Shown here piece after piece: positions 6,079 through 48,419 of a DNA stretch of 48,419 bases. The stretch is from NCBI GenBank assembly GCA_016874795.1, contig VGTG01000022.1, positions 1 to 48,419 of the forward strand. Direction: 5' to 3'. A model generated the notes under the pieces. It searched no databases and was not told where the DNA came from. It saw only the letters and a list, made by a program, of their open reading frames with translations. The stretch's first letter is position 1; each line of letters begins with the position of its first letter. Source of the DNA: Deltaproteobacteria bacterium. GTDB lineage: Bacteria; Desulfobacterota; Binatia; UBA12015. The position numbers and the translations under genes are program-made.

Positions 6079-6165
6079 AAGGGGGTCCTGTTCGATACGG
6101 CGTATCTGCACCCAGGCTCGCCCCGAGCCTGGGTGCAGATACGCCCAAACGAACCGGACCCCCTT
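6079..6165. repeat. 87-bp dispersed palindrome, copy 1 (family C)
   Basis: The inner arms are a perfect 22-bp inverted repeat (6099-6120 against 6124-6145, containing TATCTGCACCCAGGCTC) with a 3-nt loop. After a short unpaired stretch the outer arms pair again (AAGGGGGTCC at 6079-6088 with GGACCCCCTT at 6156-6165). It sits between the lpd stop codon and the upstream methyltransferase start, where it may end or stabilise transcripts. A second copy with the same core is at 32303-32390. Confidence 0.92.
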
Positions 6166-7589: not shown

Positions 7590-9044
7590 TCACAGTCCGA
7601 GGAGGAGCCGCGCCGGATCCTCGAGCGCTTCCTTCACCCGGACGAGGAAGGTCACCGCTCCCTTCCCGTCCACGATGCGATGGTCGTAGGAGAGGGCGAG
7701 GGACATCATCGGCCGGATCACGATCTCGTCGTTCACGACGATCGGCCGCTTCTCGATCTTGTGCATGCCGAGGATGCCGCTCTGCGGCGGGTTCAGGATC
7801 GGCGTCGACAGGAGCGAGCCGTAGACGCCGCCGTTCGAGATCGTGAACGTCGCGCCGGAGAGGTCGTCGACCGAGAGCTTGTTGTCGCGCGCGAGCCCGC
7901 CGAGGCGCACGATCTCGCTCTCGATCTCCGCGAAAGAGAGCTTGTCCGCGTTCCGCACGACCGGGACGACGAGGCCTCGGTCGGTTCCGACGGCGACGCC
8001 CATGTGGACGTAGCGGCGGTAGACGATGTCGGTTCCCTGGATCTCCGCGTTCAGCTCCGGCACGACCGGCACCGCCGCGCAGCACGCTTTCACGAAGAAC
8101 GACATGAAGCCGAGACCGACGCCGTGATGTGCTTCGAAGTCCTTCTTGTGGCGCGCGCGCAGGTCCTGCACCGCCGTCATGTCGACTTCGTTGAAGGTCG
8201 TCAGGATCGCGGCGGTCTGCTGCGCCTCGACGAGGCGTCGCGCGATGACTTGACGGAGGCGGCTCATCGGCACGCGCTCCTCGTGGGCCTCCGTGGCGCC
8301 GCGTGGCTCGGGACGTCGAACGGGAACGACCGACGGGGTCGTGCGCGGTGCCGGAGCCGTCGCGGCAGCGGCGGTCGCCGCGGCGCTCGTCGCCGCGGAA
8401 GCGGAGGACGGAGCGCCCTCGGCCGGACGGGAGGCGGCGAGAGAGAGCGCATCTCCTTTCGTGACGCGACCTCCCGGACCGGTTCCCTGCGCGTTCCGCA
8501 GATCGAGGTGCTCCTCCGTCGCGATCCGGCGCACCGCCGGGCTCAGCGGGCGGCTCTCGCCGGCGGCTGCTGCTTCGGCTGCGATCTCACGCGCCGGAGC
8601 AGGCTCGGCCTGCGGCGCGGCAGGCGCGGCAGGCGCGGCAGGCGCGGCAGGCACGGCAGGCGCGGCAGGCGCGGCAGGCGCGGCAGGCACGGCAGGCACG
8701 GCAGGCGTGGCAGGCACGGCAGTTGCGGCAGTTGCCGCAGGTGCGGCGGAAGGCGCCGCGGCCGCCGGCTTTGCCGGGGCGCTTTTCGTCGCCGTCGCCG
8801 TCGCCGCGCCCGCCTCGTCGATCGTCGCGACGAGCTCGCCGACGGTCACGGTGTCGCCTTCCTTCTTCAGGAGGCGCAGCACGCCCGCCTTCTCGGCGAC
8901 GATCTCCATGTTCGCCTTGTCGCTCTCGAGCTCCAGGATGGGATCGTCGACGGCGACCGGCTCGCCGTCCTTCTTCATCCACGTGCCGATCGTCGCCTCG
9001 GTCACGGACTCGCCGAGCGAGGGAATCCTCACCTCGTAGGCCAC
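7590..9044 (-). CDS. sucB: 2-oxoglutarate dehydrogenase E2, dihydrolipoyllysine succinyltransferase
   Basis: This 484-residue protein transfers the succinyl group from E1-bound thiamine to CoA. An N-terminal lipoyl domain carries the lipoylated Lys in E-L-E-S-D-K-A-N at about 42-49. A long Ala/Pro linker (about 80-150) leads to an E3/E1-binding domain (L-S-P-A-V-R-R-I-A near 168-176), a second Ala-rich linker and the catalytic domain ending in the active-site [10 protein letters not shown]. The GTG at 9042-9044 is taken as start because GGGAGG lies a few bases upstream, inside the end of sucA, and the lipoyl domain begins at once. The linker DNA contains a 9-bp tandem repeat of about 14 units. 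Confidence 0.95.
8614..8739 (-). repeat. 9-bp tandem repeat in the sucB linker, about 14 units
   Basis: GGCGCGGCA-like 9-mers are repeated twelve times with single-base variants (GGCACGGCA, GGCGTGGCA), followed by two more diverged units. They encode a period-three Ala-Ala-Pro/Val-Pro-Ala linker. The third base-pair changes are synonymous or conservative, so the flexible linker is under selection for composition rather than sequence. Confidence 0.93.
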
Positions 9045-9048
9045 TCGC

Positions 9049-11868
9049 TCAGCCTCCCGCCTCGACGCGGCGCTCGGACGCTCGTCGCGACGAGCGCTTC
9101 TCGCCGGCACCGCGCGGCAGACGCGCCGGCACAGGGCGTCCGTCGAAGAGCTGCGCGAGGAGAGCCTCCTGCTCCTTGTTGTGCAGGCCGTACGAGCCGG
9201 CGGCGGGGCTCGCCGCCTCGTCGCGGCCGACGTAGCGCAGCTCGCGATCGCCGATCACCGTGGGAAGGTGCTGCGACACGTACCACCAAGGGCCCATGTT
9301 GCGTGGCTCCTCCTGCGTCCACGCGACGTCGCGTGCGTTCGGATACTCCTCGAGGATCGCCTGCAAGCGCTCCGCCGGGAACGGATAGAGCTCCTCGACG
9401 CGGATCGCGACGACGCCGAGATCCGCGCGCGCCTCTCGCGCCTTGGCGATCTCGTAGAACACCTTGCCGCTGCAGAGCGCGATCGTGCGCACCTTGCGCG
9501 ACTCGAGCGTCACGGGATCGGGAAGGACGGGCCGGAAGCTCGCCGTCGTGAGCTCCGCGATCGCGGAGCCCGCGGTCTTCTGGCGCAGCAAGCTCTTCGG
9601 CGACATCACGACGAGCGGCTTCCGGAAGGAGCGATGCATCTGCCGCCGCAGGAGGTGGAAGAGCTGCGCCGCCGTGGTCGGCTGGACGACCTGCAGGTTG
9701 TCGTCGGCGCAGAGCTGGAGGAACCGCTCGAGCCGGGCGCTCGAGTGCTCCGGCCCCTGGCCCTCGTAGCCGTGCGGCAGATAGAGCACGAGGCCGCTCG
9801 CGCGCTGCCACTTCGACTCTCCGGCGGAGAGGAACGTGTCGATCACGACCTGCGCGCCGTTCGCGAAGTCGCCGAACTGCGCTTCCCAGATCGTCAGCAC
9901 GTTCGGCGCCGCGGACGAGAACCCGTACTCGAAGCCGAGCGCGCCCGCTTCGGAGAGCGGGCTGTCGAGGATCTCGAAGCGCGCCTGGTTCTCGCCCTCC
10001 GTGGCGACGTCGTTCAGCGGCACCCACGGTGCGTTCGTCTTCTGATCGAAGAGGACCGCGTGACGATGGCTGAACGTGCCGCGCCGGCTGTCCTGGCCCG
10101 TCAAGCGGACGGGGATCCCTTCGCGGAGGAGAGAGCCGATCGAGAGCATCTCGGCGCAGCCGAAGTCGATGCCCTTGCCGCGCTGGACCATCTCGAGCCG
10201 CTCGGCGTAGAGCTTCTCCACCTTCGGGTGGATCGAGAACCCCTCGGGGGCGGCGGACACCGAGCGCTCGGCGATCTCCTTCAGGCGCGCCTCGGAGACG
10301 GTCGTGTCGGCGTCCCGTCCCTCGCCCGCGGAGCCGAGCCCCGACCAGGCGTCGCCGTAGCTGAAGACCTGCTGCCGCGGCCGGAAGGCGCGCGCGTACT
10401 CGAGGGCGAGCTCGAGCACCTCGTCGACCTCGCGATGGACCGCGCCGAGCTCCTCGGACGTGAACGTGCTCGACTCGAGGAGTCGCTGCTCGTAGAGCGC
10501 GCGCGTCGTGGGATGCGCGGCGATCTGCTCGTACATCACCGGCTGCGTGAACGTCGGCTCGTCGAGCTCGTTGTGGCCGTGCCGGCGGTAGCAGACGAGG
10601 TCGATCACGGCGTCGCGCTTGAACTTCTGGCGGAAGCCGAGGGCCAGGCGCACCGCGCGCGTCGCCATCTCCGGATCGTCGGCGTTCACGTGGAGCACGG
10701 GCGACTCGATGATGCGCGCGATGTCCGTCGCGTAGCGCGTCGGCCGCGCCGCCTCCGGAGGCGTCGTGAAGCCGACCTGGTTGTTGATCACGACGTGGAT
10801 CGTGCCGCCGGTGAAGTAGCCGTGCAGGTGGCTCAGGAGGAGCGTCTCGGGAACCACGCCCTGCCCGATGAACGCAGCGTCGCCGTGCACGAGGACGGGG
10901 ATGACGCGCCGCCGGTCGCGGTCGCCGAGACGGTTCTGCTTCGCGCGGACCTTCCCCTCGACGACCGGGTTCACGATCTCGAGGTGGCTCGGGTTCGGCG
11001 TCAGCGAGACGTGGACGACCGAGCCGTTGACGGCGTGATGGTCGCGCGAGTAGCCTTGGTGGTACTTGACGTCGCCGTCGCCCTGCACCCAGTCGGGCAG
11101 CGTGCTGCCTTCGAACTCGGAGAGGATCATCTCGTAGGGCTTGCGGACGACGTTCGCGAGGACGTTCAGGCGACCGCGGTGCGCCATCCCGAGGACGATC
11201 TGCTCGACGCCGTGGGTCGCGGCGTCCTCGATCAGGAGCTCGAGCATCGGGATCAGCGTCTCGCCGCCTTCGAGCGAGAAGCGCTTCTGGCTCGGATACT
11301 TCTTGTGCAGGTACTGCTCGAAGCTCTCCGCCTCGACGAGCTTCGTGAAGATCAGACGCTGCGTGTCGCGATCGAGCTGCGGGCGGTTGCGCGACGGCTC
11401 CATCCGCTCCTCGAGCCACTCGCGTTGCTCGGAGTCGCGGATGTGCGTGAACTCGACGCCGAGCGTTCCGCAGTAGGTCTCCTTCAACGCCGCGACGAGC
11501 TCGCCGAGCGTCGCTGGCGGCGGGCCGCGGAAGTCGCCGGACGGGCAGGGGAGCGCCAAGTCGCCGTCGCGAAGCCCGAAATGGGCGCGGTCGAGAAGCG
11601 GATGCCACTCGGGCGGATCGCCGAGCGGGTTCAGATTCGCGAGGAGGTGGCCGAGGTCGCGATAGCTGCTGACGAGCCCGAACGTCGCGGGGGGTGCCGA
11701 GGACGACGTCGCTTCACCGGAAGCGGTCGCCTCGCTCCGACCGAGCTCGAGCCCTTGAAAGAACGCCCGCCAGGTCGGGTCGACCGTGGCGGGATCACGC
11801 CGGTACCGCTCGAAGAGCTGGTCGATGAACTCGGCGTTCGCGCGATTGAAGAAGTCCGGGGCTGACAA
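9049..11868 (-). CDS. sucA: 2-oxoglutarate dehydrogenase E1 component
   Basis: This ~939-residue protein is the thiamine-dependent decarboxylase of the TCA-cycle complex and is close to the family's usual ~930 residues. It begins with the SucA N-terminal helix ([18 protein letters not shown]), which binds the E2 core. Further on are [13 protein letters not shown] and the thiamine-binding G-D-A-A-F ... I-N-N-Q-V-G-F. The TTG at 11866-11868 is preferred as start because GGAGGAGAGGAG stands directly upstream and known SucA proteins start M-S-x-x-D-F. A GTG at 11931 adds 21 unconserved residues. Its stop lies a few bases from the sucB start. The promoter must lie in the repeat-filled gap 11869-12205. 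Confidence 0.96.
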
Positions 11869-11966
11869 GCTCGTCTCCTCTCCTCCTCTGACCTCGGCGC
11901 GGCGGCGGACCCCGACGCGCTCTCCCTTCACAATCTAGCCGTTCCGTACGGTGCAGACCAACGTCG

Positions 11967-12197
11967 AAGCGAGGGGGCGCCGCCCCCTCGCCGAGGCGGC
12001 GGCGAAGCCACCGCCTCTCCACGGTTGATCGCAAGCGAGGGGGCGCCGCCCCCTCGCCGAGGCGGCGGCGAAGCCACCGCCTCTCCACGGTTGATCGCAA
12101 GCGAGGGGGCGCCGCCCCCTCGCCGAGGCGGCGGCGAAGCCACCGCCTCTCCACTCCTCCGCTCGCTTTCGCTCGGCCGCGCGCTGTGCGCGCGGAG
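11967..12197 (-). repeat. Family A modular hairpin repeat: three tandem 66-bp units plus flank (copy A1)
   Basis: Units begin at 11967, 12033 and 12099 with an exact 66-bp period; the third stops at about 12153. Each unit holds a 9-bp hairpin (CGAGGGGGC-GCC-GCCCCCTCG), then a second hairpin (GAGGCGGCGGC-GAA-GCCACCGCCTC), then the spacer TCTCCACGGTTGATCGCAA. From 12154 to about 12197 follows a G+C-rich flank that, read on the minus strand, matches the flanks at 26977 and 48250. The block fills the divergent gap between sucA and the patatin gene, which is otherwise free of genes. Open reading frames through it are shadows. Confidence 0.95.
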
Positions 12198-12205
12198 ACC
12201 GCGAA

Positions 12206-13471
12206 TTGACGTGCCTCTTCATCCACGGCAGACCGTACGGCGTGGACGGAGCTGCCGCGGCAGCCCCGCGCATCGCGGTCGTCCTGTCGGGAGGCGGCGC
12301 GCGGGGGGCGTACGAGGCGGGCGTGCTGTCCTACGTCCTCGACGAGCTGCCCGCGGCCCTCGGCCGTCCGGTGCAGTTCTCGATCGTGACCGGGACGAGC
12401 ATCGGGGCCCTGCACGCCTGCTACCTCGCCGCGACGCGGGGCGCGCCCGGGAGCGGAGCCCGACTGCTGCAACTTTGGGCCGAGCTCTCGCTCGCGAAGG
12501 TCTATCGCATCGGGGCGGGGGACATCGCGAGGCTTCCGCTCTGGCTCCTCGGGCGGAGCCGCGGGCCCGGCCTGCTCGACCTGGGCCCCGGCGCCGTCCG
12601 CGTCCCCGGCCTGATCGACACGGGACCGCTCGAAGAGCTGATCGCGAGCTACGTCGACTGGGCGAGGATCGAGGGCAACATCGCCGCCGGCACCCCGCAG
12701 GCACTCGCCGTTACCGCGACGGAGATCGCGACCGGGCGCTCGGTGGTCTTCGTCGACACCGCGGACGGCGAGATCCGCGGCTGGCCGGAGGATCCGTTCG
12801 TCGTCGCGCGGCCGGCCCGGATCGGCGCGAACCACGCGCTCGCCTCCGCAGCGATCCCGGTGCTCTTCGCGGCGCGGAAGGTCGACGGCGCGTTCTTCTG
12901 CGACGGCGGCCTCCGCCTCAACACGCCGCTCTCGCCGGCTCTCCACCTCGGGGCGGACCGCGTGCTCGTGATCGGGCTTCGCCACCTGCGCTCCGCCCAG
13001 GAGGAGGACCGGATCGCGCGCGAGCGCGAGCTCGTCTTCCTGAACCCCGCGTACCTCGCCGGGAAGGTGCTGAACGCGCTTCTCCTCGATCGCGTCGAGA
13101 GCGACGTCGAGCAGCTTCGCTTCGCGAACGAGCTCCTGCGCGCCGGCGAGGCCGAGTGCGGCGACGACTTCCTCCGGCGCGCCGAGAAGCGGATCGGGCG
13201 TCCCTTGAAGATCGTCGAGAGCTGCCTCGTCCGTCCCTCGGAGGACCTCGGCGAGCTCGCGGGCGAGTGCCTCCGCCGCCGTCCCCGCGATCGCAGCGCG
13301 ACCGACCGGATCGCCGCGCTCTTCATGCGAACCGTCGCGCGCGGCACGGGTCCCGACAAGGACCTTCTTTCCTACGTCCTCTTCGACGCCGTCTACGCGG
13401 AGCGCCTTCTGGCGCTCGGCCGCCGCGACGCCGCCGCCGCGCACGACTCCCTGGTGAAGCTCTTCTCCTAG
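12206..13471 (+). CDS. Patatin-like phospholipase family protein
   Basis: This 421-residue protein has the complete patatin catalytic set: the oxyanion Gly-rich loop S-G-G-G-A-R-G-A-Y at about 28-36, nucleophile Ser65 in G-T-S-I-G, and the dyad Asp233 in D-G-G-L-R. The family hydrolyses acyl esters of phospholipids or other lipids, in or near membranes; the specificity is unknown. The start is ambiguous. The TTG at 12206 has GGAG eight bases upstream, and a GTG at 12242 lies closer to the conserved domain. The stop codon TAG at 13469-13471 lies inside the inverted end of the 186-bp element, so the last residues of the protein may have been set by that insertion. Confidence 0.88.
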   Translation: MTCLFIHGRPYGVDGAAAAAPRIAVVLSGGGARGAYEAGVLSYVLDELPAALGRPVQFSIVTGTSIGALHACYLAATRGAPGSGARLLQLWAELSLAKVYRIGAGDIARLPLWLLGRSRGPGLLDLGPGAVRVPGLIDTGPLEELIASYVDWARIEGNIAAGTPQALAVTATEIATGRSVVFVDTADGEIRGWPEDPFVVARPARIGANHALASAAIPVLFAARKVDGAFFCDGGLRLNTPLSPALHLGADRVLVIGLRHLRSAQEEDRIARERELVFLNPAYLAGKVLNALLLDRVESDVEQLRFANELLRAGEAECGDDFLRRAEKRIGRPLKIVESCLVRPSEDLGELAGECLRRRPRDRSATDRIAALFMRTVARGTGPDKDLLSYVLFDAVYAERLLALGRRDAAAAHDSLVKLFS

Positions 13472-13653
13472 CCTGCATTTCTCACCAGATCCCTACTGCG
13501 GCGGCCGATAGCACCGAATCTTCGCGAGCTTCTCCCTCCGGGCTCCTCGACGTACTGTTCAAGTACGCCTGCGTCGCCCTCCGGTCCGAGGCTCGCGAAT
13601 CTTCGGCACTCTCGACCGCCTCGCGACGTGATCTGGTGAGAAATGCAGGCTAG
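13468..13653. mobile_element. 186-bp MITE-like element with perfect 24-bp terminal inverted repeats (family B)
   Basis: The 24-bp ends at 13468-13491 and 13630-13653 are exact inverted repeats containing GCATTTCTCACCAGATC. Inside are a second, imperfect pair of arms (near 13516-13533 and 13590-13607, each containing GAATCTTC) and a small central hairpin CGTACT-GTTCA-AGTACG. There is no coding capacity. The ends supply the TAG stop codons of both the patatin gene (13469-13471) and the SDR gene (13650-13652). The whole element can fold into one long hairpin and would act as a bidirectional transcript end. Confidence 0.9.
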
Positions 13654-26976: not shown

Positions 26977-27073
26977 CCTCCGCGCGCGCAGCGAGCGGCC
27001 GACAGCGAGCGGGGAGTGAGGGCCCCGTCGGGCTTTGCCCGACGGGGGCGAGGGGCGGCGCCCCGCGCAATCA
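26977..27073 (+). repeat. Family A hairpin repeat, single diverged copy (A2)
   Basis: A flank beginning CCTCCGCGCGC and containing AGCGAGCGGGGAGTGAG leads into a perfect 10-bp hairpin CCCGTCGGGC-TTT-GCCCGACGGG (27025-27047). A shorter G+C hairpin GGGGC-GGC-GCCCC and the closing GCGCAATCAA follow. The order and spacing match the copies at 11967 and 48250, although both hairpin sequences differ. It occupies the gap between the cytochrome-like gene and the BIG2 gene; the last bases contain the stop codon of the cytochrome-like gene. The rest of the gap (26839-26976) holds no gene I can support. Confidence 0.8.
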
Positions 27074-32302: not shown

Positions 32303-32390
32303 CGAGGGGGTCCGGTTCGTTACGCCCTATCTGCACCCAGGCTCGAGTGAGCCTGGGTGCAGATGCGCGCTAACGAACCGGACCCCCTCG
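32303..32390. repeat. 88-bp dispersed palindrome, copy 2 (family C)
   Basis: Left arm 32303-32344 and right arm 32349-32390 pair over nearly their whole 42 nt with a 4-nt loop (GAGT). Pairing is interrupted only by a few mismatched bases near CCCTAT/GCGCGC. The core CTGCACCCAGGCTC and the outer GGTCCGGTTCGTT are shared with copy 1 at 6079. It lies in the divergent promoter region between the MaoC and DUF11 genes. Confidence 0.93.
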
Positions 32391-48230: not shown

Positions 48231-48249
48231 TGGCCGCGGATTCTCGAAC

Positions 48250-48419
48250 CTCCGCGCGCGGAGCGCGCGGCCGGTGCTGCGGGCGAGCGGGGGAGTGGAG
48301 AAGGCTCGGCTTTGCCGAGCCTTCGGCGAGGGGGCAGTGCCCCCTCGCTTGCGATCAACCGTGGAGAAGGCTCGGCTTTGCCGAGCCTTCGGCGAGGGGG
48401 CAGTGCCCCCTCGCTTGCG
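48250..48419 (+). repeat. Family A modular hairpin repeat: flank plus two 66-bp units, cut by the window end (copy A3)
   Basis: A flank CTCCGCGCGC ... CGGCC ... GCGAGCGGGGGAGTGGAG leads into units at 48295 and 48361, period 66. Each unit has a perfect hairpin AAGGCTCGGC-TTT-GCCGAGCCTT, then CGAGGGGGC-AGT-GCCCCCTCG, then CTTGCGATCAACC. On the minus strand this is the same order as copy A1 but with different inner hairpin arms. It follows the glycosyltransferase and continues past the end of the window. No gene lies in 48231-48419. Confidence 0.93.

Follow-up and report, generated by a model that had tools for sequence, protein, structure and literature searches.

A dispersed, three-hairpin palindromic element with a covarying stem in a Deltaproteobacteria bacterium genome, best filed as a new REP/BOX-like family

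What kind of sequence is the 66-bp repeat that begins at position 11967, and what keeps its inner hairpin paired when both arms differ from one copy to another? These questions were raised by a window of 48,419 nucleotides (i.e. the whole stretch of DNA analysed here), in which a first-pass annotation had noticed the repeat. We compared the copies of the window's contig (C22) with those of the whole host genome (G000, belonging to an uncultured lineage) and of other genomes, using a covariance model of the element (R1).

A MAFFT alignment of 41 copies revealed a longer full unit, dispersed and about 100 bp in length, that comprises three hairpins: hp1, a variable hp2 and hp3. In this alignment, hp1 reads GCGAGGGGGC-GCC-GCCCCCTCGC or, in a four-G form, GAGAGGGGC-GCC-GCCCCTCTC; the spacer between hp2 and hp3 is close to TCCACTCCCCCGCTCGC, and hp3 is CGCGCGC-TTC-GCGCGCG plus flanks. 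The 66-bp unit is only a part of the element (hp1, hp2 and TCCACGGTTGATCGC) and was met only in arrays. The window holds the following copies:

11967..12032, plus strand: array unit 1 (hp1 11969-11991, hp2 11993-12017, spacer TCCACGGTTGATCGC)
12033..12098, plus strand: array unit 2, identical to unit 1
12099..12198, plus strand: terminal unit, a complete element (hp1 12101-12123, hp2 12125-12149, spacer TCCACTCCTCCGCTCGC, hp3 12177-12195; R1 104.5 bits; DNA fold z -3.54)
26977..27071, minus strand: single copy of the four-G subfamily (hp2 27023-27047; R1 59.7 bits)
48249..48350, minus strand: hp3-bearing terminal unit of a second array (hp2 48300-48324; R1 101.1 bits)
48355..48416, minus strand: further unit of the second array, which runs off the contig end at 48419 (same hp2 as at the end of contig C167)

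The first-pass annotation had counted three exact 66-bp units at 11967. Two are indeed identical (11967-12032 and 12033-12098), and the third (12099) is partial, following unit 1 for its first 56 bases before the tail TCCTCCGCTCGC and the third hairpin. The two units announced on the opposite strand at 48295 were found (48295-48353 and 48361-48419, identical, the second cut by the contig end), as was the single diverged copy at 26977 (26977-27071, minus strand). The latter contradicts the constant frame that had been proposed, having hp3, no array and a spacer other than TCCACGGTTGATCGC. Inner hairpins said to differ between loci around a fixed three-base loop were observed at all three window loci: hp2 is GAGGCGGCGGC-GAA-GCCACCGCCTC at 11967 (with one C-A mismatch), GAAGGCTCGGC-AAA-GCCGAGCCTTC at 48295 and CCCCGTCGGGC-AAA-GCCCGACGGGG at 26977. 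Part of the difference between the first two and the third is descent from different subfamilies. The three window copies folded better than their shuffles, both as DNA (z -3.54, -6.30 and -2.35) and as RNA (z -3.29, -5.33 and -2.36); the signal was weakest for 26977, where 3 of 200 (DNA) and 4 of 200 (RNA) shuffles were equally good. Copy L043, devoid of an hp2 of the usual form, folded no better than shuffles as RNA (z -0.74).

When the 231-bp region was used as query against its own genome, 45 matches were retrieved, and R1 gave at least 125 matches in the host at E<=0.001 (150 of 23108 candidates scored, some matches being units of one array). Exact duplicates were left out of the copy set, as were reverse-strand palindromic matches (5 of 123, and 1 of 29 among those from relatives). 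Since flanks differ among copies, bar a few local duplications (L015, L046, L121/L122), the repeat is not limited to assembly duplication, a risk that the earlier reading had itself raised. Among 58 genomes (relatives and host), seven carry the element, with at least 70 R1 matches in G000 (70 candidates scored), 58 in G006, 41 in G010, 31 in G032, 23 in G025, and 3 each in G005 and G052; the congeners G001, G002 and G003 gave zero R1 matches. Class-wide, in what we take to be Binatia, 7 of 148 genomes were positive, the host among them, and a phylum sample yielded 1 of 395, i.e. the host (10 candidates scored per genome). A pattern centred on hp3 retrieved 41 loci from contigs of GTDB genomes, 16 of which carry the element according to R1: 12 in the soil MAG DP_3, three in DP_26 and one in a K_Offshore_80m MAG, all bearing the name 'Deltaproteobacteria bacterium'. 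As their R1 scores are equal, G025 is very probably DP_3 and G052 DP_26. R1 matched none of the other 25 loci at E<=0.01, and these were taken as chance hits of the pattern. No match to the element was found in plasmids, viral contigs gave no exact match to the one core pattern used, and Rfam at gathering thresholds returned nothing in the window.

To look at the origin of this patchy distribution, we joined the two flanks of each of six element loci and used them as queries against five relatives. At L043, L149 (adjoining a parE-like gene; gene names were given by eye) and L120, G001, G002 and G003 are collinear with the host on both sides, and none of the nine sites holds the element; L022, L024 and L045 were set aside, their right flank not being collinear in the congeners. 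In the host, the element begins at the stop codon at L043 (TGATC) and L149 (TAGCT), and at L120 the stop TAG falls within its first bases. Because the element is absent genome-wide from the three congeners, gain in the host lineage is very probable, being by parsimony the simpler reading compared with three losses. By eye, neither target-site duplications nor terminal inverted repeats, the features expected of a MITE, were seen at the three compared sites, in copies or in flanks, and the right end of the element is ragged. The site orthologous to 11967 is not informative, since homology ends at the start of the sucA-like gene in all three congeners. Adjoining this sucA-like gene, a run of 9-bp repeats (GGCGCGGCA-like) occupies 8587-8775; one frame of its minus strand reads Ala-Ala-Pro by eye, which may be a linker within a dehydrogenase E2 subunit.

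Placement relative to genes was assessed on 106 copies (118 minus 12 inner array or tandem units), with gene calls from a home-made codon-usage caller rather than curated annotation. Of the 66 copies with a left gene on the same strand, 54 have its stop at -6..+10 nt from the element; for an opposite-strand left gene, the start was in this interval in 15 of 35. On the right, a facing gene had its stop within -15..30 nt in 51 of 72 cases, and a same-strand gene had its start within 30 nt in 1 of 22. Only three of the 106 copies lie inside a called gene. Convergent gaps were enriched (42/91 gaps with element vs 20/188 without, p=1e-10) and divergent gaps depleted (2/91 vs 39/188, p=8e-6); the 11967 array is an exception, with divergent genes on both sides as judged by eye. 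Between co-directional genes, the orientation of the element (20 vs 29) had no clear bias.

The left flank carries a weak T-N-A/G-T-C/T motif at -9..-5 before GAGG, often overlapping the stop codon. Checked against 188 control stops, the motif began right at the stop codon in 20 cases and further on in 63, spread over 54 positions (about 0.6% per position), and stop codons are thus favoured sites for it. The motif alone predicts that about one quarter of insertions would fall at stops (20/83), so that the tighter placement observed is not fully explained. In the 54 close cases, the start of the hp1 stem lies between about 4 nt upstream and 12 nt downstream of the stop codon's end. REPs have a similar placement and their termini may provide the stop codon, according to the available part of the work of Di Nocera and co-workers (PMC3733652), and in Escherichia coli ribosome stalling is reported for REPs lying <=15 nt downstream of a stop codon (PMC12306157, in excerpt). 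By analogy, the proximity of hp1 to the stop would predict a REP-like effect on the upstream gene.

Such a location could also mean that selection acts on the hairpins as RNA and so preserves them, as a bidirectional 3' UTR terminator, an mRNA stabiliser or a regulator of translation termination, the stems changing by classical compensatory evolution. Copies adjoining stop codons or sitting between convergent genes, window copies that fold stably as RNA, the covariation of hp2 and the action on translation reported for REPs close to stop codons (PMC12306157, in excerpt) are all in line with this proposal. It accords poorly with the unbiased orientation between co-directional genes, with a scan of the stretch 11850-12350 that contained no T-run terminator, and with the three congeners that carry the same three genes without the element. 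The pairing and the mode of change of the stems, considered below, weigh further on it.

Arrays of at least two units were found at seven loci: C22:11967, C8, C73:11740, C32, C20 and two inferred joins (C290 with the start of C73, and C167 with the end of C22). The right end of C22 and the end of C167 have an hp2 absent elsewhere among the 152 copies whose hp2 was cut out, and likewise the end of C290 and the start of C73 have in common an hp2 absent elsewhere in this set; each pair having a private hp2, its members probably abut, and the arrays break the assembly. Wherever the end of an array is visible, the last unit has hp3. The inner array spacer GGTTGATCGC is constant across the seven loci and the left flank of the first unit varies (those of C290 and C167 have only TAGTTC in common), which suggests that the array moved whole or formed repeatedly. 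Hairpin hp2 is uniform within one array locus (one base off in C20) and mostly different between loci, C73:11740, C32 and one C20 unit having the same hp2, a pattern that looks like local homogenisation. The 66-bp arrays are internal tandem amplifications of the element, recurring at several loci.

The covariation of hp2 was assessed after cutting it as 11+3+11 nt about the loop, which yielded 107 distinct sequences from 152 copies. The apex is GC-NNN-GC in 93 of them, of which 12 (23 copies) form fewer than 7 pairs; the other 14 (17 copies) lack the GC..GC apex. The main set comprised the 81 distinct hp2 with at least 7 of 11 pairs, three reverse-strand rows being left out. In this set, 90.1% of cells were paired, vs 62.8% after shuffling and 35-50% with slid partners; the threshold of 7 pairs inflates this percentage, and the 93 distinct hp2 taken without it gave 83.9% vs 61.5% shuffled. 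Cells changed on both sides numbered 219 vs 69.8 shuffled. The excess was also present within the five-G subfamily (22 distinct hp2; 91.3% paired vs 76.3% shuffled, and 38 vs 12.2 both-side-changed cells). Two of the five measures, i.e. pairs with both-side change and pair types, were not clearly above shuffles, being matched by 129 and 104 of 500 shuffles for the 81 hp2 and by 31 and 34 of 500 for the five-G subfamily. The modular build noted in the first-pass annotation is upheld, and the joint change of both arms that it had read from a few copies holds in a shuffle-controlled comparison of many, in which paired substitutions are present. Upkeep of hp2 is imperfect, since 40 of the 152 copies lack an hp2 of the usual form: many of these have an alternative right arm near GCCTAAGCTGCG, some are truncated or interrupted (L174, L119), and a few have another hairpin (L114, L197). 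Among 135 hairpins chosen for their GC..GC apex, 131 have an NNA loop, including 83 AAA and 29 GAA. GCGAAGC is one of the extraordinarily stable DNA mini-hairpins. A structure of d(GCGAAGC) as DNA has been solved (PMC5430850, in excerpt), and the stability of such mini-hairpins is described as extraordinary (PMC10527192, in excerpt).

Paired change had been taken, in the first-pass annotation, as a sign of selection on the fold; the change is there, and the step to selection is not compelled, given the few G-T intermediates described here and the 40 copies without the usual hp2. Selected RNA stems change mostly via G-U. With transitions in C-G pairs, G-T and A-C mismatches should be equally frequent if pairing is irrelevant, and G-T should be in excess if RNA pairing is selected. 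One-letter steps that break a pair gave 1 G-T, 11 A-C and 25 other mismatches in hp2, 4, 11 and 12 in hp1, and 2, 4 and 9 in hp3, i.e. 7, 26 and 46 when pooled (G-T vs A-C, p=0.0013 if the steps are independent, which steps between hairpins are not fully). G-T being scarce relative to A-C, the pattern is therefore unlike selection on RNA. A study of rRNA genes found that G-U/U-G pairs were hit by 78.5% of the compensatory changes made in two steps, a measure different from ours, and template switching is argued to be able to create and repair stems (PMC8794818, in excerpt). Of the one-pair swaps between hp2 hairpins, 11 out of 16 have no intermediate in the set, and in 121 pairs of hp2 hairpins the difference amounts to 2-9 swapped pairs. 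A C-A mismatch is present in the hp2 found most often in the five-G subfamily (9 copies); its repaired forms T-A (2 copies) and C-G (1 copy) both exist, which is what copying either arm would give. These block changes are better accounted for by template switching that copies one arm from the other, or by selection on a DNA hairpin in single-stranded form, than by selection on RNA, and the route of stem change, together with the loop data, leans to DNA over RNA. Selection on RNA as the force that keeps the hairpins appears unlikely to us.

Block changes of 2-9 pairs, and arrays that are nearly uniform within a locus, would also be expected if whole hp2 hairpins were exchanged between copies by recombination, as in BIME-like mosaics. 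This would concern the upkeep of hp2 only and is compatible with the rest of the explanation that we prefer. Eighteen of 44 hairpins with at least 10 Watson-Crick pairs have both arms private, with no donor in the set, and we regard exchange as a possibility to be held tentatively. Were template switching true, covariation in palindromic repeats would on its own say little in favour of a functional RNA, a point of relevance to R-scape and similar covariation tests. With its dozens of stems, this single genome provides a natural series that makes the route of compensatory change readable.

Which protein could have moved the element? A strict REP mobilised by a host Y1 tyrosine transposase (RAYT/TnpA-REP or IS200/IS605) was considered, as REPs have the same placement (PMC3733652, in excerpt), the host has 13 Y1_Tnp matches, and an hp3-like hairpin precedes the Y1 domain of one of them, on C21 (L055), by about 340 nt. 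Y1_Tnp is disfavoured by host range, being absent at E<=0.001 from G006, G010 and G005 (58, 41 and 3 element matches, respectively), although loss after spread is conceivable. Moreover, 12 of the 13 host Y1 loci have no element match at E<0.01 in the flanking stretch examined, none of the host Y1 genes was found flanked by the element on both sides, no GTAG or CGTC tag is conserved, and a different palindrome family flanks one host Y1 gene. Mobilisation by Y1 is accordingly the reading that we find most improbable. L055 was rejected as an autonomous source, as only an hp3-like hairpin and no hp1 was seen upstream; this hairpin (L055:2020-2075, devoid of hp1 and hp2) has a tail, GGCTCGCGTCTTGGGTC, that resembles the tail following hp3 in a subset of elements. 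Twelve of the 13 host Y1_Tnp matches (L048-L059) are mostly diverged genes of about 240 aa, and in all except L059 a motif resembling GAACATCGCCCGATTCAA is seen by eye before a promoter-like stretch. Y2_Tnp (of IS91-like rolling-circle elements) showed no correlation with the element across the 58 genomes: it occurs in G000, G006, G010, G025 and G032, is absent from G005 and G052, and is present in 28 of 58 genomes overall, many of them without the element.

Other palindromes were noticed in the window. Those at 6080-6164 and 32305-32388 are long, and their ends match the following repeats:

L047:1347 and 2162-2202: inverted repeats flanking the Y1_Tnp gene of contig C66

Judging from these shared ends, the two palindromes and the C66 gene likely represent a TIRYT-type transposon with a non-autonomous hairpin partner. 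The element at 13468-13653 measures 186 bp and is bounded by perfect inverted ends of 24 bp (CTAGCCTGCATTTCTCACCAGATC); the host has 245 of these ends at <=2 mismatches, the first listed all being exact and several lying near contig ends, and the element is a recent burst in this genome. One 186-bp copy sits inside a copy of the hairpin element (L119:1140-1422).

Taken together, the repeat is probably a non-autonomous palindromic element of about 100 bp, REP/BIME-like, spread by transposition, with its hp2 rewritten at the DNA level. The element would have spread by transposition within the lineage, its hp1 end settling behind the weak T-N-A/G-T-C/T motif, and would survive mainly at gene 3' ends; in some copies the hp1-hp2 part would have been amplified in tandem (66 bp). 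During replication, template switching would rewrite one hp2 arm from the other, possibly with added selection for a DNA hairpin recognised by a mobiliser. Behind a stop codon, the hairpin would, like REPs, influence the termination of translation and the 3' ends of mRNA. More speculatively, the conserved trait may be the size of the single-stranded DNA hairpin and its apex (GC-NNA-GC), with stems rewritten by template switching and a non-Y1 mobiliser that reads shape and directs the element to stop codons; we offer this as a tentative idea.

How does this element compare with known repeat families? Like REPs and BIMEs as described in the available part of PMC3733652, it is extragenic, palindromic and of high copy number, lies mostly in convergent or co-directional gaps near gene 3' ends, and, like the CGTC REPs in the same source, is not associated with transposase genes. 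It differs in size, REPs measuring 20-40 bp and the present element about 100 bp with three hairpins; in the GTAG/CGTC tag, which is not conserved within 25 nt on the left or 60 nt on the right (102 left and 104 right flanks), GTAG being present in a few single copies only; in three element-bearing genomes devoid of Y1_Tnp (G005, G006 and G010); and, from both REPs and BIMEs, in its internal 66-bp arrays in direct orientation. TIRYTs, whose repeats flank Y1 genes and are dispersed as families (PMC3733652, in excerpt), are comparable, but here the ends are unrelated and no transposase gene was found flanked by the element on both sides.

In plan, the element resembles the BOX elements of Streptococcus pneumoniae, which are composite with a tandem module (boxA-(boxB)n-boxC), have predicted stem-loops and are regarded as parasitic (PMC3049150, in excerpt). 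This comparison is one of plan and not of sequence: no terminal inverted repeats were seen here by eye, and the repeated module (hp1-hp2) is the left end itself, hp3 remaining single. The MIRUs of mycobacteria occur as direct tandem copies. They are likewise short, apparently mobile and inserted at gene borders, but at start codons with a coupled frame (PMC12548453, in excerpt), whereas the present element prefers the stop side. Among the open-licence PMC papers listed, no title or abstract opening describes the element. Since it behaves as a REP, departs from REPs in tag, size and transposase, and has a composite plan like that of BOX, it is best filed as a new REP/BOX-like family. It adds an abundant REP-like family that, like the CGTC REPs, does not track a Y1 transposase, and poses anew the question of what moves such repeats.
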